Program-made: the position numbers and the translations under genes | Source of the DNA: Actinomycetota bacterium | Lineage (GTDB): Bacteria > Actinomycetota > Acidimicrobiia > Acidimicrobiales > Ilumatobacteraceae | Length of the DNA stretch: 22,040 nt | Assembly: GCA_009704065.1 (NCBI GenBank) | Contig: WLEX01000003.1 | Span: 1 to 22,040, forward strand | Reading direction: 5' to 3' | In this document: in pieces, positions 5,619 through 19,756 of the stretch | Layout: each line of letters starts with the position of its first letter | Numbering within the stretch: position 1 is the first letter of the stretch | Notes under the pieces: model-generated | Told to the model about the DNA's origin: nothing | The model's input: the letters and a program-made list of their open reading frames with translations, nothing else | Databases searched by the model: none

Positions 5619-6992
5619 CTACTTCACGATGACAGCAGTCACCATGTACTTCATACCTGTTGGTGTTTCTGCGTGGGTAAGGATGTGGCAATGCCACGCC
5701 CACACGCCTGGGTCGGTGGCGGTGTAGGCAACAGTCCATCGCTCACCAGGGGCAACTGCAATGGTGTCCGACATGTAAGGACTATCGAGCATCTTTCCGT
5801 CCTTTGCCACTACAACACCTGTTGGTTGATGCAAGTGCATTGGGTGAGTCATGAGACCTTCGTTGTAATAGTGAACAACGATAGTTTCACCAATTGCCAT
5901 CGTGTACGGAGCCGTTGCTGGGAATGACTTACCGTTCAATGACAGACCAATTGTTCCCGCGTCGTTCAGAACCATCACAATTTCTTGTTCTGCTTTTCCG
6001 TCTTTATCAGGAAGTTTGCTCCCAGCGGCCTTCATTGCAGCCGTCTTGTAATCACCGATAATGAATGCTCCAGCAAGCCCGTTTGGAATTTGCACTTGAG
6101 CATTGTGATGTGAGTGATACATACCGACAGCTGGTTCTTTGGCAGTCCATTCGTAGGTGAAAGTATCTCCTGGAAGAATGGGCTTTTGGGTATAGGGGTC
6201 TACGCCGTCCATTGCATTAGGCACGCGAATTCCGTGCAAGTGCAAAGAAGTTGACTCAGACAATTCGTTCTTCAAGATGAGGCGAATCTTGTCACCAACA
6301 TTTGCATGCATAGTTGGTCCGGGAATTTGGCCGTTATATGCCCATCCCTTCACAATCTTGCCGGGCTCTACTTCCCAGTCGATCACCTTCGCAACGATCG
6401 AGAACTCTTTGGCGCCATCAGCTGCAATCGTTGGCTTGAGTTCTTGCGCACCTAGACCTGCCGTCTTTGCAGGAAACTTCATGGCAACTTCTTCCATCAC
6501 CTTGTCCATTTCTGCATTGGTCATCACGGGCATCGTGGTCTCGGTAACCCCGGGAGTCGCATCAGTGCTTACTTTGAGAACTGCTTTCATTCCAGAATCT
6601 TGATGTCCAGGAATTTCACAAATGACGTTCACATCATCTGACACATTTCCCATGTCGAGTAATACATGCGCACCCGACGGAATGTCAGCAGTGCGCTTCG
6701 ACAAATCGGTTGCTGCAAAGTTATGCACAGCAGTTCCTGCATTGTGAATACTGAATACAACATTGCCTGGCGGCACTACTGATGGACTCATTGAGATAGT
6801 AAATTCGGTGAGTGTCACTTCAACAGTGGTAGCTGAAGCAGCACTGCCTGTTCCAGTGGTTGAGTCCTTTGCAACAGCCACTACACCGACTGCACCAATT
6901 GAAATAACCATTACGACGATCACCAACATCATGAGTGAGAAAAGAAAATTCCCGCTCTCAAAGAATTGGTTTCCAAGCCTTTTTTCAGACAT
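5619..6992 (-). CDS. Membrane-anchored cupredoxin-multicopper oxidase fusion (two-domain laccase-like)
   Basis: A 457-residue extracytoplasmic copper protein. One N-terminal membrane anchor (about 17-41) is followed by three parts. First is a cupredoxin domain (55-142) with a full type-1 copper site: H90, C125, H130, M135. Next is a linker (145-195), then a two-domain multicopper oxidase. The oxidase has HLH (251/253) and HSH (293/295) in its first domain, and HPMHLH (383/386/388) plus HCHILTH...M (434-447) in its second. All eight trinuclear-cluster histidines and a second type-1 site (H383, C435, H440, M447) are therefore present. This fits an O2-reducing laccase-type enzyme better than a nitrite reductase, which lacks the trinuclear cluster. 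The extra cupredoxin may relay electrons. GAAGGAG lies 9-10 nt before the ATG. It is monocistronic, with its own terminator. The substrate is unknown. Confidence 0.9.
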   Translation of the reverse strand: MSEKRLGNQFFESGNFLFSLMMLVIVVMVISIGAVGVVAVAKDSTTGTGSAASATTVEVTLTEFTISMSPSVVPPGNVVFSIHNAGTAVHNFAATDLSKRTADIPSGAHVLLDMGNVSDDVNVICEIPGHQDSGMKAVLKVSTDATPGVTETTMPVMTNAEMDKVMEEVAMKFPAKTAGLGAQELKPTIAADGAKEFSIVAKVIDWEVEPGKIVKGWAYNGQIPGPTMHANVGDKIRLILKNELSESTSLHLHGIRVPNAMDGVDPYTQKPILPGDTFTYEWTAKEPAVGMYHSHHNAQVQIPNGLAGAFIIGDYKTAAMKAAGSKLPDKDGKAEQEIVMVLNDAGTIGLSLNGKSFPATAPYTMAIGETIVVHYYNEGLMTHPMHLHQPTGVVVAKDGKMLDSPYMSDTIAVAPGERWTVAYTATDPGVWAWHCHILTHAETPTGMKYMVTAVIVK

Positions 6993-10100: not shown

Positions 10101-10385
10101 GTGGATGCAGCAGCCGAACTTCATGGAGCAGTGCCTTCCCTGTCGGCGACGGACCGCCTTGTTTTACAAGTCCTTGCTGAATCGGTCGGTCGCATTGTGG
10201 GCCGAGACACCATTATTAGAAGAGCAGGGCTCGATCACGCGTCAACTCGTCGCGCAGACGCATCCATCGTGGCCATACGCAAACATTTGGGAGCTACCGC
10301 AATTACTACTGTTCGCCGCAGAGGGTGGATGCTTCTCGAAGAATCTTTGCCCACGGTCATTGCCCTCCTTCAAAGTCAGATATAA
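10101..10385 (+). CDS. Stand-alone winged-helix (OmpR/PhoB-type) DNA-binding protein
   Basis: A 94-residue protein that is almost only a Trans_reg_C-like winged helix. LSATDRLVLQVLAESVGRIVGRDTIIRRAG (14-43) matches the first helices. RRADASIVAIRKHLGATAITTVRRRGWMLLE (50-80) matches the recognition helix and wing, as in the R-x-VDVHIxRLRxKLG...TVRGxGYxL pattern. No receiver domain is encoded upstream: the frame has no sensible start earlier and runs into the acyl-CoA dehydrogenase region. I chose GTG 10101 because TACGGT lies 7 nt before it; GTG 10131 is possible. The stop lies 5 nt before the antiporter ATG, so the two are probably coupled. I infer a local regulator, but have no direct evidence for its target. 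Confidence 0.65.
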   Translation: MDAAAELHGAVPSLSATDRLVLQVLAESVGRIVGRDTIIRRAGLDHASTRRADASIVAIRKHLGATAITTVRRRGWMLLEESLPTVIALLQSQI

Positions 10386-10390
10386 ATCAT

Positions 10391-13057
10391 ATGGTGAATT
10401 CAGTACTCGTGGCCTCCAGCGGAGCGCTTGATTTTGGGTCTATATTCACCGACCTTGCGATCATCCTCTTAATAGCCAAGCTTGCAGCCGAGTTATTTGA
10501 ACGTCTCCGTATCCCAGCCGTCTTGGGAGAAATTATTGCGGGCATCGTTATTGGCCCATCAATGCTTGGTCTCATTAGCCCGAGTGACGCCATGCGAGTT
10601 CTTGCAGAGATCGGCGTCATCATCCTTCTTGCAGAGGTAGGTCTTGAAATGGACCTCACCGAATTGCGACGAGTGGGGAAAGCCTCGATGCTCGTGGCAA
10701 TCATTGGTGTTGTTGTGCCGATGTCCTCAGGAATCCTCGCCGGAACAGTTCTGGGTGAGACATTTAACGCTTCGCTGTTCTTAGGTGCCGCCCTTGCAGC
10801 AACAAGTGTTGGAATCACTGCTCGAGTATTTGGCGACCTGCGAGCATTGTCGTCGACTGAAGCTCGAATCGTTCTGGGGGCCGCGGTTGCCGATGATGTT
10901 TTAGGCCTTGTGATCCTCACAGTCGTTACGCGTGTGGTGGAGCAGGGCTCCATCGATCTCGCAGGATTGGCTTCAACAATTGGATTGGCTGTGGGATTCA
11001 TTGCTATTGCTGGCGCATTTGGCATATTCGTAGTTCCAAAAATATTTGCTGCAATCGGCACACGCGCTCTCTCGCCCTCAACAATTGGTGTCTTGGCTGC
11101 CGGTGTTACGTTCGGATTCTCCGCAGTTGCGAGCGGTGCACAACTTGCACCAATTATCGGTGCGTTTATCGCAGGTACCGCGTTGTCTCGCACCCCACAA
11201 CACGACCGAATCGCACGAGATTTCAAAGCATTGGGAAGCATCTTTATTCCCGTGTTCTTCATGCAAATTGGCATCGACACTGATGTCACAAAGTTCTTCT
11301 CTGGCCATGTGCTCTTTGTCGCGGCCATCTTGACCGTGATTGCAATTGTTGGAAAAGTGGTTGCAGCCGTGGGTGCTCGCGGAACAAATACCGACAAACT
11401 CCTCATCGGCCTCGGCATGATCCCACGCGGCGAAGTGGGATTAATTTTTGCATCGATTGGCGTCAGCGTCGGGGTGTTTCATGAAGACCTTTATGCAGTC
11501 GTGCTACTTGTCGTACTTCTGACAACAGTGGTGACTCCACCATTACTGCGTTGGAGAATCCAATCGGTCGCTGAAAACACTGAGTCTCCGAGTGCCCCGG
11601 TTACTGAACATGAACCTGCGGGTGGTTGGATAATCGGAAACGAAACCGATATTCAACTGCAAGGTAACCCTCCTGCCTCACTCGTACTAGAAATTGGTCT
11701 CACTACTGCACTGCTTGCCACACAAGCCCAACCAAGCGACGGACTCCTTGACTGGATGCATGCGCATCGCACATCAGAACTTTTGTGGTCACAAGAGACC
11801 ACTGAACAACTCTTGAATGTCCTTGTTCGCGGTAACGCACGTTCATGGAGATTTCTTGAGTTGACAAACATTGTTGATCGAGCACTTCCCGAAATTTCAC
11901 AAGCACTTCAGTCGCGCCGTGGAGATGCCTCCGAACTTGATCCAACCCACCTCGTTCAAATGCCCACGGTGGAAGCTCTTCGTTCACGCATTTCAAAAGT
12001 GAAGCTAGAAGATTCCGCGCTCATATTTGCTGCTTTTGTTTTAGATTTCTCCGTTGACGTTTCAGCGATAGGACTCATTGAGCGTCTCACTCTCCCAGCA
12101 GAGGTTTCTCGTCAGGTACGAGCACTTGTCGCCGCAAGTTCGCTCTTGCATTCAGCTGCTTCCGCTGAGCCATACGAAAACAATCCACGAGTCATGGCTC
12201 AGTTGGCAGATTTCCTTGGGTCTCCCATCATGGTGGAACGATGCAGAATGCTGACCGAAGCACGTGGAAACTTAGAGGACTGGCAATACTCAGTGCTGCT
12301 CGACATCACTACCGGTGTGCAAGAACTTCTTGCGCATCCCGAACTGATTGAAGGCCTGAAGGATTCGCTTGAGGCAGTGCGCCGACAAGATGCAATTGCG
12401 CTCACTACTGATGCTGCTGTGATTGATCGAATCAATTTTGCAGCAGCTGTGTATGTGTTGGCACACGATCCACAGTTGCTGGTGCGTCACGCCACTCTTG
12501 TAGAACCAGCACCTCGTTCTCGAACAGCACGTGTGAGCGTGCATGAAACAGATCGTCCTTTTGAATGGGAAGTCGACATAGCGACCCGAGACATGCGGGG
12601 CCTTCTTGCTCGTATCTGCGCAGTTCTGGCGGAGCGAGGATTAGAAATCGTAAGTGCCGATCTTGCCACTTGGCCTGACGGAGCGGTTCTCGACTCGTTC
12701 ATTGTTCGATCGCAACAAAAACCGAATGCTGTGCAAATTGCATTTGAGTTAGAGCGTCGCCTCAAGAAAAGACTCGATGCTCCGCGTCGGCTTATGAAGG
12801 GCGATAACGCTCGATTAACCATTTCTCTCGACAACAATGCACACCCGTGGCACAGTGTCGTCACTGTTGCCGGCGCAGATCAATCCGGTCTTGTACAAAC
12901 CGTTGCCACAGCTTTTGCAAAAGCAAAAGTCAACGTGCACCATGCACGAATTACTACCAATGGTTCCGATATTGCGGACCGATTTGAAGTATCGACACGA
13001 CATGGCCGCAAAATCGGGCAACAGTCTCTGAAACACATCACCGAACTTCTGTCCTAG
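10391..13057 (+). CDS. CPA2 cation/H+ antiporter fused to a GlnD-like module (degenerate HD plus two ACT domains)
   Basis: An 888-residue membrane protein. Residues 15-388 form a CPA2/KefB-type Na+(K+)/H+ exchanger domain. It includes PAVLGEIIAGIVIGPSMLGL, the paired aspartates in AVADDVLGL (D168/D169) and a last helix bundle with GLGMIPRGEVGLIFASIG. No RCK/TrkA-N domain follows. Residues about 448-668 align by eye with the HD region of GlnD: SALIFAAFVLDF against GlnD LIYIAALFHDI, then LPAEVSRQVRALVAASSLL, then NPRVMAQLADFLG...CRMLTEAR. The HD histidine and later metal ligands are replaced, so phosphohydrolase activity is probably lost. Residues 726-793 and 821-886 are two ACT domains (RDMRGLLARICAVLAERGLEIVSA; GADQSGLVQTVATAFAKAKV), as at the GlnD C-terminus. 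There is no nucleotidyltransferase domain. It sits 5 nt after the winged-helix gene and just before glnK1. The start at ATG 10391 has no Shine-Dalgarno. Confidence 0.85.
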   Translation: MVNSVLVASSGALDFGSIFTDLAIILLIAKLAAELFERLRIPAVLGEIIAGIVIGPSMLGLISPSDAMRVLAEIGVIILLAEVGLEMDLTELRRVGKASMLVAIIGVVVPMSSGILAGTVLGETFNASLFLGAALAATSVGITARVFGDLRALSSTEARIVLGAAVADDVLGLVILTVVTRVVEQGSIDLAGLASTIGLAVGFIAIAGAFGIFVVPKIFAAIGTRALSPSTIGVLAAGVTFGFSAVASGAQLAPIIGAFIAGTALSRTPQHDRIARDFKALGSIFIPVFFMQIGIDTDVTKFFSGHVLFVAAILTVIAIVGKVVAAVGARGTNTDKLLIGLGMIPRGEVGLIFASIGVSVGVFHEDLYAVVLLVVLLTTVVTPPLLRWRIQSVAENTESPSAPVTEHEPAGGWIIGNETDIQLQGNPPASLVLEIGLTTALLATQAQPSDGLLDWMHAHRTSELLWSQETTEQLLNVLVRGNARSWRFLELTNIVDRALPEISQALQSRRGDASELDPTHLVQMPTVEALRSRISKVKLEDSALIFAAFVLDFSVDVSAIGLIERLTLPAEVSRQVRALVAASSLLHSAASAEPYENNPRVMAQLADFLGSPIMVERCRMLTEARGNLEDWQYSVLLDITTGVQELLAHPELIEGLKDSLEAVRRQDAIALTTDAAVIDRINFAAAVYVLAHDPQLLVRHATLVEPAPRSRTARVSVHETDRPFEWEVDIATRDMRGLLARICAVLAERGLEIVSADLATWPDGAVLDSFIVRSQQKPNAVQIAFELERRLKKRLDAPRRLMKGDNARLTISLDNNAHPWHSVVTVAGADQSGLVQTVATAFAKAKVNVHHARITTNGSDIADRFEVSTRHGRKIGQQSLKHITELLS

Positions 13058-13092: not shown

Positions 13093-13146
13093 GCCACACT
13101 CCCGAAACACTTGGGCGACAGTTGCGAAATATGTGCCTTCTATGGT
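13093..13146 (+). promoter_or_regulatory. GlnR-box-like four-half-site operator and -10 box of glnK1-amt1
   Basis: GCCAC (13093), GAAAC (13104), GCGAC (13115) and GAAAT (13126) follow one another at exactly 11 bp. This is GnnAC-n6-GAAAC-n6-GnnAC-n6-GAAAn, close to the published actinobacterial GlnR box, in which GTnAC alternates with GAAAC. A further CTGAC at 13082 extends the phase. The last half-site ends 10 nt before TATGGT (13141-13146), a TANNNT -10. An activator bound here would cover the -35 region. Confidence 0.68.
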
Positions 13147-13153
13147 GATTTCA

Positions 13154-14887
<1,734 letters not shown>

Positions 14888-14956: not shown

Positions 14957-14999
14957 TTCACTGATACGAAACATTCCCGAAACAGTTGGTTTCTAGTGT
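14957..14999 (+). promoter_or_regulatory. GlnR-box-like operator and -10 box of amt2-glnK2
   Basis: TTCAC (14957), GAAAC (14968) and GAAAC (14979) are exactly 11 bp apart. The last ends 10 nt before TAGTGT (14994-14999), a TANNNT -10 located 30 nt before the amt2 ATG. The string TCCCGAAACAGTTGG (14975-14989) differs by one base from 13100-13114 in the glnK1 promoter. Same period and same -10 distance as the other two arrays. Confidence 0.65.
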
Positions 15000-15029: not shown

Positions 15030-16657
<1,628 letters not shown>

Positions 16658-16673: not shown

Positions 16674-17873
16674 ATGACAATGACGGCAGATACACCCGCC
16701 AAAGCGCCTCGATGGACAGCGCAATGGAAAGAACTCTACGAAGAGGTTATCGACACTGGCCTGTGCACGGGATGTGCCGGATGTGTTGTTACATGCCCAC
16801 ACGACGTGATCGGGTACGAGCACGAAGAGGGCAAGTACAAGCCGTTCCATATTGAAGAAGAACTCGGTCTAGATAATTGCATCCACGGCGAGAAGGGTTG
16901 CACTACTTGCACACGTGCATGTCCACGCTTTCGCATGTGGGAATCCTCTGCCAACAATCACCTCTTTGGCCGCGACCGCGAACCCGATGAAATGTCTGGA
17001 ATTTGGCGCCAACTTCTTCTTACGCGTGCAGCCGATACAGAAGAACACGAAAAGGGCCAAGACGGCGGTTTCGTTTCGGCCATGCTTATCTGGCTGTTGA
17101 AGAACGACTACATCGATGGTGCATTGGTAAGTGGCGTAGAAGAAGACGACAAGTGGAAAGCAAAACCTGCTGTTGTTACCAACCGCGAAGAAGTTCTTGC
17201 CACTGCAGGCAGCCGTTACACCTATTGCGCAAACCCATTGGCTCTTCCTGAAGCAAAAGAAAAAGGCTTGTCACGCCTTGCACTTGTAGGTATGGGATGC
17301 CAGACCTCTTCACCTCCCGTTATGTGGGATCGCAAAGCCGGCAAAGTGTCGAAGCCATTCCTTTTCAACATTGGTCTTCTCTGTTCAAAAACTTTTGACG
17401 ATGCAATCTTTCCTGAGCTCTTTGAAGCCAAGTACGGCCTCAAAAAAGAAGACATGGTGAAGATGAACATTAAGGGCGCCTTCCAAATCTGGATGAAAGA
17501 TGGCTCTTTCCACGAAATCGATCTGAAGGAATGCCACGGCTGGACTCGCACAGGTTGCAAAACATGTCCCGACTTTGCAGCAGAGCACTCCGATATCGCT
17601 ACAGGTGGAATTGGCAAAGACAACGACTGGACACTCACCATCGTGCGTACCGCATTGGGCGAAGAAGTCATCAATCGCATGATTGCCGACAAAGTCATCG
17701 TTGCGCGTCCTGCACAAGAAGACGAAGTTGCTATGAAGCTCTTGCGCACACTCTCCATTGTGAGTCGTCGTCGCTGGCCAGAGTGGGCAGAAGGCACTGT
17801 TTCCGTTGGTACACCAGCAGTGAAAAAGAAGGCAGCGCCTGTTGCCGATGCTGAGCCAAAACCAGCAGAGTAA
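16674..17873 (+). CDS. FrhB-family iron-sulfur flavoprotein (coenzyme F420 hydrogenase/dehydrogenase beta-like)
   Basis: A 399-residue oxidoreductase subunit. The N-terminal ferredoxin-like part has two [4Fe-4S] motifs: C31/C34/C37/C41 (CTGCAGCVVTCP) and C69/C76/C79/C83. Then comes the FrhB N-domain (GQDGGFVSAMLIWLL, about 128-142; GMGCQ with C209) and the FrhB C-domain, with NIGLLCSKTFD and CHGWTRTGCKTCPDFAAEHSDIATGGIG (C287, C295, C298). Family members bind FAD and move electrons between F420 and iron-sulfur partners such as hydrogenase, formate dehydrogenase, sulfite reductase or glutamate synthase. The tail after residue 380 is Ala/Pro/Lys-rich. No partner subunit is encoded nearby. Its place after amt-glnK suggests a link with nitrogen assimilation, which is inference only. 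Confidence 0.88.
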   Translation: MTMTADTPAKAPRWTAQWKELYEEVIDTGLCTGCAGCVVTCPHDVIGYEHEEGKYKPFHIEEELGLDNCIHGEKGCTTCTRACPRFRMWESSANNHLFGRDREPDEMSGIWRQLLLTRAADTEEHEKGQDGGFVSAMLIWLLKNDYIDGALVSGVEEDDKWKAKPAVVTNREEVLATAGSRYTYCANPLALPEAKEKGLSRLALVGMGCQTSSPPVMWDRKAGKVSKPFLFNIGLLCSKTFDDAIFPELFEAKYGLKKEDMVKMNIKGAFQIWMKDGSFHEIDLKECHGWTRTGCKTCPDFAAEHSDIATGGIGKDNDWTLTIVRTALGEEVINRMIADKVIVARPAQEDEVAMKLLRTLSIVSRRRWPEWAEGTVSVGTPAVKKKAAPVADAEPKPAE

Positions 17874-17876
17874 ATA

Positions 17877-18797
17877 ATGACTTTGCATCCGCAAGCAGCG
17901 CGCTTGATTGCTGTAATGGAATCGCGTCAGCAAAAAGGTTTCTCCGAAGTCACTCCGCAAGAAGCCCGTGCAGCGCGCGCCGCCACTGACTACAAGTCAA
18001 ATGAACATGTGCATGAAATGCGTGATGTCAATGCACTCGGAGTGCGTTGTCGCCTGTACAAACCAAGCGCCGACAACAATCTTGGTCTGATGGTGTTTTT
18101 TCATGGTGGTGGTTGGGTGCTCGGAAGCATCGAATCACACGACGGACTCTGTCGAACATTGGCGAATCAATCGGGACAAGCAATTTTGTCTGTTGATTAC
18201 CGACTTGCTCCTGAGGATCCGTTTCCCAATGGATTAGAAGATTGCATTCGTGCAACTTTATGGGCACACCAGAACGCAGACGAATTAGGGATCGACCCCA
18301 CTCGCATTTCTGTTGGTGGTGACAGCGCCGGAGGAAACTTCGCTGCAGTAGTAGCCCAATTGCAACCGGTGCCCTTGGTGTTTCAAGTACTTATTTATCC
18401 TGTTACCGATTGCACTATGAAGACACCCTCATACGTAGAAAATGCAGAAGGTCCCTTTTTGCGCGCGAACGATATGGCTGCTTTTATCGACGCGTACATT
18501 GGCGATATAACAAGCCCCCAAGATCCTCGCGTCTCGCCCATCTCGGCATCACCGAGCACTCTTGCCTCGTGCCCACCTGCTCTTATCATTACTGCGCACC
18601 ATGATCCACTGCGTGACGAAGGCGAAGAGTATGGGGCTGCATTGTTGGCAAATGGTGTCGAAGCGAGCATCGTGCGTTATTTCGGAATGTTCCACGGATT
18701 TGTCTCACTCTTCCCCTGGCTCGACGATGGGAAGACTGCGGTCTCCTTGATCGCCTCAGCGATGCGCACTGCGCTCGCACCACCGCGCAATAAATAA
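17877..18797 (+). CDS. HSL-type alpha/beta hydrolase (first of tandem pair)
   Basis: A 306-residue esterase/lipase of the hormone-sensitive-lipase group (carboxylesterase family IV). The oxyanion motif HGGGW (76-80) precedes the nucleophile elbow GGDSAGG with Ser150; Asp243 (HHDPLRDE) and His273 (MFHGF) complete the triad. There is no signal peptide, so it should be cytoplasmic. The ATG at 17877 follows the FrhB stop by 3 nt, indicating one operon. The protein starts MTLHPQAARLIAVM, closely like its downstream neighbour. The natural ester substrate is unknown; family members act on short-chain esters or acyl groups. Confidence 0.93.
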   Translation: MTLHPQAARLIAVMESRQQKGFSEVTPQEARAARAATDYKSNEHVHEMRDVNALGVRCRLYKPSADNNLGLMVFFHGGGWVLGSIESHDGLCRTLANQSGQAILSVDYRLAPEDPFPNGLEDCIRATLWAHQNADELGIDPTRISVGGDSAGGNFAAVVAQLQPVPLVFQVLIYPVTDCTMKTPSYVENAEGPFLRANDMAAFIDAYIGDITSPQDPRVSPISASPSTLASCPPALIITAHHDPLRDEGEEYGAALLANGVEASIVRYFGMFHGFVSLFPWLDDGKTAVSLIASAMRTALAPPRNK

Positions 18798-18847
18798 CCC
18801 AGGCTCCCCTCGCGGTACTGTTGGTACATCAACGACCGGGGGGCTCT

Positions 18848-19756
18848 ATGGCACTACATCCACAAGCAACTGCAATTCTCACCGTGATGGCCGCGATGGG
18901 CGGACCAGTTATCGAAGAATCAACACCCACAGAATTTCGGGAGTACTACGCATCGCGTCAAGTGCCTCCTACTGAAACAATGTTTGAAATCCGCGACATC
19001 AGTGCAGGTGGTGTTCCATCACGTTTGTATCGTCCGAACGACAACAAAGACCTTGGGTTACTCGTGTACTACCACGGTGGTGGATGGGTGATCGGAAACG
19101 TTGATTCCCACGATTCAATTTGTCGTTCGCTTGCCAACAAGATGGGTCATGCAGTGTTATCGGTTGATTACCGCCTTGCTCCCGAGCACCCATGGCCTGC
19201 GGCTGCTGAAGATGCTTTGTGCTCATTGCGATGGGCATACGACAACGCAACCGAACTAGGAATCAACCCCGACCGCATAGCGGTAGGTGGCGACAGCGCC
19301 GGTGGGAACCTGGCCGCAATTGTGAGCCAACAGCGCCCTGTGCCACTGGTATTTCAGATGCTCATCTATCCCGCCACCGATATGTCGCAGTCGTTCCCGT
19401 CGCACACCGAGAACGCAGCCGGGCCGGTACTCACGAAAGGCGCAATGAGCTGGTTTATTGGTCATTACATGCCACAAGGTGCTGACATGAAAGATCCGTT
19501 GGCATCTCCTGGCTTCAGTCCCGACAATTTGTTGAAGGGTGCACCACCCGCGCTGATCATTACTGCTGAACACGATCCGTTGCGCGACGAAGGCGAAGCA
19601 TACGGACGTCGACTCATTGAAAATGGCGTCACCACCAGCATCATTCGCTACAACGGAATGTTCCACAGTTTCTTTGGCATGGTTGGCTTGCTCGATGATG
19701 CCAATACTGCACATCTTGTTGCAGCAAACATGACTGCAAAAGCGCTCAGCGAGTAG
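18848..19756 (+). CDS. HSL-type alpha/beta hydrolase (second of tandem pair)
   Basis: A 302-residue paralogue of the preceding gene. It has the same HGGGW motif and the same triad numbering (Ser150, Asp243, His273), and a matching N-terminus (MALHPQATAILTVM). A TTG start at 18821 would add nine residues; I chose ATG 18848 because a GGGGGG Shine-Dalgarno precedes it and the shared N-terminus begins there. The gap to the first copy is 50 nt. The pair looks like an old tandem duplication, since synonymous and many amino-acid positions differ. Its 3' end overlaps the convergent glycosylase gene by 11 nt. Confidence 0.93.
   Translation: MALHPQATAILTVMAAMGGPVIEESTPTEFREYYASRQVPPTETMFEIRDISAGGVPSRLYRPNDNKDLGLLVYYHGGGWVIGNVDSHDSICRSLANKMGHAVLSVDYRLAPEHPWPAAAEDALCSLRWAYDNATELGINPDRIAVGGDSAGGNLAAIVSQQRPVPLVFQMLIYPATDMSQSFPSHTENAAGPVLTKGAMSWFIGHYMPQGADMKDPLASPGFSPDNLLKGAPPALIITAEHDPLRDEGEAYGRRLIENGVTTSIIRYNGMFHSFFGMVGLLDDANTAHLVAANMTAKALSE

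Follow-up and report, generated by a model that had tools for sequence, protein, structure and literature searches.

GlnD is known as a glutamine sensor that works via PII proteins, and KefC carries a cytoplasmic ligand-sensing RCK tail on an antiporter of the CPA2 class. In a stretch of 22,040 nucleotides from an actinobacterium of the family Ilumatobacteraceae (contig WLEX01000003.1 of assembly GCA_009704065.1), herein referred to as the window, we analyzed a gene in which the sensor half of GlnD sits directly on an ion antiporter. The encoded protein shares with GlnD the HD-fold region and tandem ACT domains in the same order, with the ACT effector loops retained, but it has no nucleotidyltransferase, has lost the HD ligands, is joined to a membrane antiporter, forms a separate clade, and occurs in some hosts without detectable PII. 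The likeness to KefC ends at the general plan, since the tail is GlnD-like and not RCK, and the transport domain is far from that of KefC. The whole transport domain aligns instead with PDB entry 4bwz, which we take to be NapA of Thermus thermophilus; the aspartate pair and the motif of transmembrane helix 4 (TM4) are identical, whereas the crystallized chain of 394 residues has no GlnD-like tail. This assignment agrees with the TtNapA entries 5BZ2 and 5BZ3 named in PMC6181914. In the available text of PMC12702975, plant ACT-repeat (ACR) proteins such as ACR11 are described as structurally similar to GlnD; ACR11 is a plastid plant regulator, and that text mentions no transporter fusion. Regulatory modules fused to transporters include the EIIA-like domain of LacS and the methionine-binding C2 domain of MetNI (PMC10710835, available part), with other modules, other transporter families and other signals. 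By term count, GlnD is not mentioned in the available text of PMC10433425, nor are GlnD or ACT domains in that of PMC10710835, and no description of an antiporter-GlnD fusion appeared among the titles listed in searches of the open-access literature, which left most subscription journals outside.

The gene and its modules are located as follows.

10391 to 13057, + strand: fusion gene for a NapA-like CPA2 antiporter, a GlnD-derived pseudo-HD region and tandem ACT domains, 888 amino acids (open reading frame, Pfam, NCBIfam, hhalign)
10460 to 11548, + strand: antiporter domain, residues 24-386, with the motif A137-T138-S139-V140, D168-D169, K322, R346 and E348 (PF00999, E 1.8e-62; NapA 4bwz, E 1.7e-67; conservation over 58 rows)
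11600 to 12535, + strand: GlnD-like helical region and pseudo-HD, about residues 404-715, metal ligands lost (hhalign to GlnD; ligand table)
12554 to 12790, + strand: ACT domain 1, about residues 722-800, D734 and G737 loop retained, W761 in 39/39 fusions (Pfam; residue counts)
12833 to 13054, + strand: ACT domain 2, about residues 815-888, D830 and G833 loop retained, P819, H850 and K874 in 39/39 fusions (Pfam; residue counts)

The reading frame is uninterrupted from the ATG at 10391 to the stop at 13057, and a GTG at 10325 is an alternative start in the same open frame. On the 888-residue protein, Pfam places Na_H_Exchanger (PF00999) at residues 24-386 and ACT matches at about residues 722-760 and 823-867, and gives no match to the RCK/TrkA domains (TrkA-N/TrkA-C) at E<=1; the RCK tail that characterizes the Kef-type, RCK-gated CPA2 antiporters was thus not found. 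The same architecture of about 890 residues was found again in many assemblies, which rules out an assembly chimera, chance or a frame artefact, and PF00999 is also present in 118 of the best 120 proteins (window protein included) among 331 matches to the C-terminal half. Among NCBIfam models, the best match of the tail is TIGR01693, [protein-PII] uridylyltransferase (residues 559-886 against model positions 493-844, E 3.7e-24), and the longest is PRK03381 of the same name (residues 466-876, E 4.3e-16), both with scores far under the curated cut-offs for whole GlnD. By hhalign, the C-terminal halves of 10 fusions matched 8 true GlnDs with a probability of 100% (E 6.6e-41, 489 columns), and the fusion profile covers positions 314-847 of the 855 of GlnD. 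Since the match starts after the transferase, the tail represents GlnD without its nucleotidyltransferase domain, in the place of which stands the antiporter, and the tandem C-terminal ACT domains are those of GlnD. PDB searches with the tail gave weak ACT matches plus others taken for chance, and both the ACT fold and a docking of the tail on the membrane domain are predictions from sequence. An earlier note on this DNA, made from the letters alone, had described a CPA2 exchanger followed by a GlnD-like segment and not by RCK, with the transferase absent, and had proposed that the sensory half of GlnD was captured by the antiporter. Pfam, NCBIfam and the profile-profile comparison bear out this description; that one intact gene unites an antiporter with the portion of GlnD beyond the transferase is confirmed at the level of sequence, and the capture is supported by the homology of the tail, the missing transferase and the lost HD ligands.

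The residue comparison covers 39 full-length tails, including those of the window and its ten close relatives L006-L015 (11 in all; L stands for loci, G for genomes, f for families and g for genera of the comparison set), and 11 true GlnDs; the GlnD of the window's own genome is among the latter and breaks off ahead of the ACT domains. The HD metal ligands of GlnD are missing from the fusions: the His of the HD pair is present in 11/11 GlnDs versus 1/39 fusions (L065), the His before TVD, the Asp of TVD, the His of TVDxH and the second His of HH each in 11/11 versus 0/39, the GDH His in 10/11 versus 0/39 (a gap in all 39), and the Asp of LTxAD in 11/11 versus at most 2/39 (37 listed residues differ). 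The register around TVD is uncertain, as two MAFFT alignments placed TVD differently, and the histidines are absent in both; the Asp of HD is mostly retained (32/39). In the window protein the changes are those already pointed out in the earlier note, HD to L551-D552 and LTEAD to LTEAR (R625), and the HD hydrolase is, to judge from its ligands, reduced to a scaffold. In the ACT domains, the effector-loop residues are retained as in GlnD (D734 in 38/39, G737 in 33/39, D830 in 38/39 and G833 in 38/39), and H850 and K874, present in 39/39 fusions, are shared partly by the 10 GlnDs that reach this region, while W761 (39/39), P819 (39/39) and W820 (38/39) are fixed in the fusions but not in GlnD. 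By these residues the ACT domains look functional.

Substitution rates were calculated for the 55 pairs among the window and the ten close relatives, of which 12, none including the window, were unsaturated overall. In all 12 the nonsynonymous rate (dN) is far under the synonymous rate (dS) in each of the four modules, as exemplified by L007/L011 with dN/dS values of 0.021/0.84 for the antiporter, 0.049/1.08 for the pseudo-HD, 0.041/1.23 for ACT1 and 0.006/0.32 for ACT2. The lowest dN is that of ACT2 in 11 of the 12 pairs, and the lowest ratio that of ACT2 in 7 and of the antiporter in the remaining 5; the top ratio is about 0.17 (pseudo-HD, L009/L010), and the ratios are rough because many dS values are near saturation. 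On these estimates purifying selection is acting on every module among close relatives.

As to the antiporter half, the alignment with NapA 4bwz extends over residues 21-388, the whole domain, with the E value listed above, in contrast to only 1.8e-10 for KefC. The unwound-helix motif ATSV (A137-V140), the pair D168-D169 and K322 are all present in the window protein; in an alignment of 58 fusions K322, R346 and E348 do not vary, and A137-V140 and the aspartate pair are conserved in at least 90%. According to the available text of Masrati et al. (PMC6181914), Asp at motif position 6 together with Lys at position 8 marks electrogenic transporters, a non-polar residue at position 4 marks Na+-selective CPA2 clades, and Kef-like K+ antiporters carry L-S-S-T. 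The window protein has D168 at position 6, D169 at 7, K322 at 8 and the non-polar V140 at 4, and is predicted from this motif to be a NapA-type, electrogenic, Na+-selective antiporter. The earlier note had left the choice between K+, Na+ and NH4+; Na+ is now favored, and K+ and NH4+ are less likely because ATSV, the aspartate pair and the Lys are as in Na+-selective NapA-type proteins.

The fusion gene is followed in the window by four genes of ammonium uptake and its control, in the order PII, Amt, Amt, PII that the earlier note had given and that Pfam and NCBIfam reproduce.

13210 to 13548, + strand: PII protein GlnK1 (PF00543, E 2.5e-32)
13538 to 14887, + strand: ammonium transporter Amt1, of the subtype most often adjoining the fusion (PF00909, E 2.3e-103; locus comparison)
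15030 to 16280, + strand: ammonium transporter Amt2 (PF00909, E 2.8e-123)
16319 to 16657, + strand: PII protein GlnK2 (PF00543, E 4.3e-32)

In a set of 58 loci (the window plus 57 fetched loci, with known duplicate records removed and near relatives kept), an Amt gene lies within 2.5 kb of the fusion in 41, in several gene orders, and 6 loci are cut by contig ends. The Amt gene is directly downstream in f10, f39 and f49, directly upstream in f17, f27 and f70, and divergent in one of the two f28 loci; at least one Amt-linked locus was found in 8 of 12 families, and none in f8, f19, f30 and f35. Adjacency would be expected in about 1% of cases by an estimate from the few Amt genes per genome of 2-4 Mb, and the observed rate takes no account of kinship. 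The synteny of the Ilumatobacteraceae-like loci was rejected as an independent link to nitrogen; there the whole region from LysA to PGM is syntenic, so that the neighborhood counts little and the distant families were relied on. The place of Amt1 is filled by another subtype, 43-46% identical to Amt1, in L013, L014, L019, L075, L097, L098 and L101. When antiporter genomes without an adjacent Amt gene were searched, 12 of 13 had an Amt-type match at another place, which in G088 and G135 was no more than a distant one (36% identical); the search also took in G000 and G434. The link to ammonium transport therefore holds through gene rearrangement, and of the co-occurrence with glnK and amt suggested in the earlier note, the Amt part stands as common though not universal, and the link is to Amt more than to PII, 7 of 49 genomes being without detectable PII. 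As a separate observation, the antiporter frame of L098 (6156-9419, 1088 codons) continues without a stop into the Amt gene, by chance, by a frameshift or as a real antiporter-Amt fusion.

These 49 genomes, each with a fetched antiporter locus, include nine with a shortened tail or none (G153, G275, G281, G749, G771, G782, G793, G088 and G177). Of the 49, 40 gave a GlnD match (E<=1e-45) and 42 a PII match (E<=1e-15); G726 and G782 have PII, with GlnD not found. Neither was found in G051, G039, G752, G721, G196, G100 and G182, which are drafts estimated to be 97, 98, 88, 91, 96, 90 and 68% complete, respectively, so that single absences can be gaps. PF00543 at E<=1e-3 gave no match in these seven, under conditions in which the positive control was found in 13 of 14 known genomes, and a search for GlnD domains at E<=1e-3 gave only two stretches of one 1478-codon frame of G196, which is read as GlnE. 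The tail is full-length in six of the seven, the seventh (G752) being cut by a contig end, and in G051 and G196 Amt is still adjacent to the fusion. Since 7 of 49 antiporter genomes are without detectable PII and GlnD, a GlnK-dependent mechanism is not required there, and PII seems, on this survey, not to be needed by the fusion. These carriers are the strongest argument for direct sensing, with their draft state as its weak point. The window's own genome has a true glnD, as the genome-wide search proposed in the earlier note revealed, on contig C167 and cut by the contig end; the idea that the fusion replaces a missing GlnD there was rejected on that ground. FrhB/FdhB-type genes stand directly after the fusion in two genomes without detectable PII and GlnD (L074 and L109).

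Within the class Acidimicrobiia, 34 of 395 genomes match the tail profile at E<=1e-40; four of the matches are true GlnDs that align from the transferase onward (G004, G010, G016 and G021), leaving 30 carriers of the fusion or a shortened form in 11 families. Among these, G088 and G177 lack the ACT pair, and G103 and G122 have most of the antiporter cut off by a contig end. A sample of 346 genomes from the phylum added two carriers outside the class, G432 and G418 (both f70); in G434 the tail stands in a frame that contains no antiporter, and the other listed matches outside the class, of 190 bits or less, are presumed GlnDs. In the window's family the antiporter was detected at E<=1e-80 in 49 of 121 genomes, in 39 of them within frames of 766 codons or more, several of the short frames being cut or masked. 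A search with the f70 tail (E<=1e-20, 8000 candidates scored) gave 117 proteins, of which 110 carry PF00999, 5 are GlnDs and 2 are short tail pieces; the taxon names, available for part of these matches only, are all actinobacterial. In a tree with 10 GlnDs, the 39 fusion tails fall together in a single clade (SH-aLRT 100). This fits a single origin, and the fusion is an old family that, on this sampling, probably arose once. The available text of PMC4285133 places actinobacterial glnD in an amtB-glnK-glnD operon; if the tail came from a glnD copy captured out of such an operon, the Amt neighborhood would be accounted for. Four loci (L062, L064, L071 and L112) have a true glnD next to the fusion or within a few kb of it, as would fit a tail derived from an amt-glnK-glnD cluster. 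L104 (8533-10137), from a genome outside the class, encodes a tail-like protein of 535 codons, pseudo-HD plus ACT with the fusion-specific Trp motifs and no antiporter in frame, possibly a free-standing sensor.

On balance we lean towards reading the fusion protein as an amino-acid-gated, probably glutamine-gated, Na+/H+ antiporter that is tied to Amt and independent of PII. The ACT pair would bind an amino acid that reports nitrogen status, most likely glutamine as in GlnD, and the signal would be relayed via the pseudo-HD to the transporting half. In this scheme sensor and transporter belong to one chain, and gating would be direct, with no part for PII. While ammonium enters by Amt and is assimilated, Na+/H+ exchange would then be tuned, and cytoplasmic pH and membrane potential along with it; the sign that we favor is activation at high glutamine, where proton import by the antiporter would offset the base load from ammonia influx. 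A more specific form of this proposal, which we regard as tentative and short of an even chance, is that direct gating by glutamine couples ion and pH balance to Amt uptake, and that in lineages without PII and GlnD the fusion could be what remains of GlnD-type nitrogen sensing, with a transporter as its target instead of an enzyme cascade. If the gating is true, a broad set of uncultured actinobacteria, some seemingly without PII and GlnD, would possess a one-protein route from nitrogen status to proton and sodium balance, and the fusion would offer a membrane system for studying how the ACT domains of GlnD read their ligand, for which homologues that naturally lack the tail or the ACT pair, found at the same locus, are ready-made controls.

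Several observations weigh against the gating proposal. The tail has been lost in five loci (L016, L017, L018, L019 and L099), where the antiporter is retained and ends near residue 400, and the ACT pair in eight further loci (L078, L080 and L093-L098), again with the antiporter kept. No Amt gene lies within 2.5 kb in 11 of the 58 loci with adequate flanks, no GlnR-like array is outstanding before the fusion gene (62% of shuffles as good; 37-100% in 12 relatives), and the nearness of glnD to the fusion in the four loci named above would also fit a link to PII. The ACT positions W761, P819 and W820 are specific to the fusions, unlike GlnD, and the ligand may therefore not be glutamine. As for the losses, the L016 sequence aligns with the last part of the antiporter and, on the far side of a gap, with the last part of the fusion gene plus spacer of L013 (92.7% identity, 193 bases), the final tail codons remaining out of frame; by this alignment a fused ancestor lost its tail in a clean deletion. 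In the tree, L016, L017 with L018, and L019 stand apart from one another (L099 was not included). The pseudo-HD is clear in L078 and L080 (profile E 3.9e-94 and 4.7e-58, respectively, at a database size of one), whereas the tail of genus g8 (L093-L098), about 190 residues long, matches only the first part of the profile and weakly (21-25 bits; E 3e-10 to 7e-9 at the same database size, L096 left out; hhalign probability 64%), and is a probable, much altered remnant of the GlnD tail. Two other candidates for tail loss were rejected: in L101 masked bases are followed by the tail, and in L067 an internal TGA after the antiporter has tail sequence downstream. The tail is useful yet dispensable in some hosts, as expected for a regulatory module, its dispensability belonging with the points against gating.

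The repeated, independent loss of the tail or its ACT part would also suit a degenerating passenger, with the GlnD half a functionless fossil, an explanation that is barely credible in view of the purifying selection on all modules, the invariant residues in 39/39 tails and the retention of the tail across two classes. The tail could also serve for docking of PII, a remnant of GlnD that binds GlnK, which in turn switches the antiporter as it does AmtB. PII is the only known substrate of GlnD in the available text of PMC4285133, the window has two PII genes after the fusion, PII lies near the fusion in many f1 loci and glnD in the four mentioned, and most antiporter genomes (42/49) have PII. 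Still, we judge such docking quite unlikely, for the seven genomes have no PII at the Pfam level though six carry a full-length tail, both catalytic sites with which GlnD handles PII are absent or ligand-less in the fusion, and no PII gene was detected in the retrieved parts of the f10, f17, f27, f39, f49 and f70 loci, where Amt is beside the fusion.

Some CPA2 proteins transport NH4+, and the fusion adjoins Amt; an antiporter exporting NH4+ (or K+), opened by high glutamine, could thus relieve excess uptake by Amt. The Na+-selective electrogenic motif (V140, D168-D169, K322), as opposed to the L-S-S-T of Kef-like K+ antiporters (PMC6181914, available text), makes this valve rather unlikely. 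We give a similarly modest chance to the view that some other amino acid or metabolite is what the ACT tail responds to and that the Amt linkage is a chromosomal habit; ammonium uptake would then be no specific concern of the protein, a pH/Na+ antiporter gated by an amino acid. This view draws on the ACT residues specific to the fusions and on the f35, f30, f19 and f8 loci and one f28 locus without Amt nearby, most of which are near genes that we read as leucine-biosynthesis-like or hydantoinase-like, and it is opposed by Amt linkage in 8 of 12 families, in differing gene orders and also outside the class.

With respect to expression, two arrays of half-sites spaced every 11 bp, which we take to be GlnR-like by their resemblance to the GlnR consensus, precede the downstream units and are found at matching places in relatives.

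13093 to 13130, + strand: GCCAC-n6-GAAAC-n6-GCGAC-n6-GAAAT, before the first PII gene (PII1-Amt1 unit)
14957 to 14983, + strand: TTCAC-n6-GAAAC-n6-GAAAC, before Amt2 (Amt2-PII2 unit)

The best half-site pair was equalled by 2% of shuffles for the first array and 3.5% for the second, the shuffles preserving base composition only. Of 12 relatives examined for the first array, 8 gave <=6% of shuffles and L007, L013, L016 and L072, in which one base of the half-site pair differs, 21-43%; the second array gave <=5% in all 8 relatives, a conservation that may be mere descent. Co-regulation of the fusion with glnK and amt was rejected, and, as no array is outstanding before it, the fusion gene looks by its upstream sequence like a separate expression unit.

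Further observations concern the surrounding genes, the names of the first three groups being our reading of the sequences. Amt-less loci lie a few kb from leuC/leuD-like genes (L022, L023, L066, L067, L068, L078, L081, L082 and L083), several of them also near leuA- or cimA-like genes, and hydantoinase/oxoprolinase-like genes follow in L060, L078, L081 and L082. In the window, the second PII gene is followed by the gene for a ferredoxin-like plus FrhB/FdhB-type (coenzyme F420) protein (16674-17873), which remains with the cluster in many loci of the window's family. A multicopper oxidase gene of NirK-type appearance (5619-6992) is present in L006 and unmatched in L008, L009, L010, L011, L013 and L015, though its neighbors are present there. 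Two tandem paralogous genes for alpha/beta-hydrolases, esterase-like, occupy 17877-19756, and one of the two is absent in L009, L013, L014 and L015.

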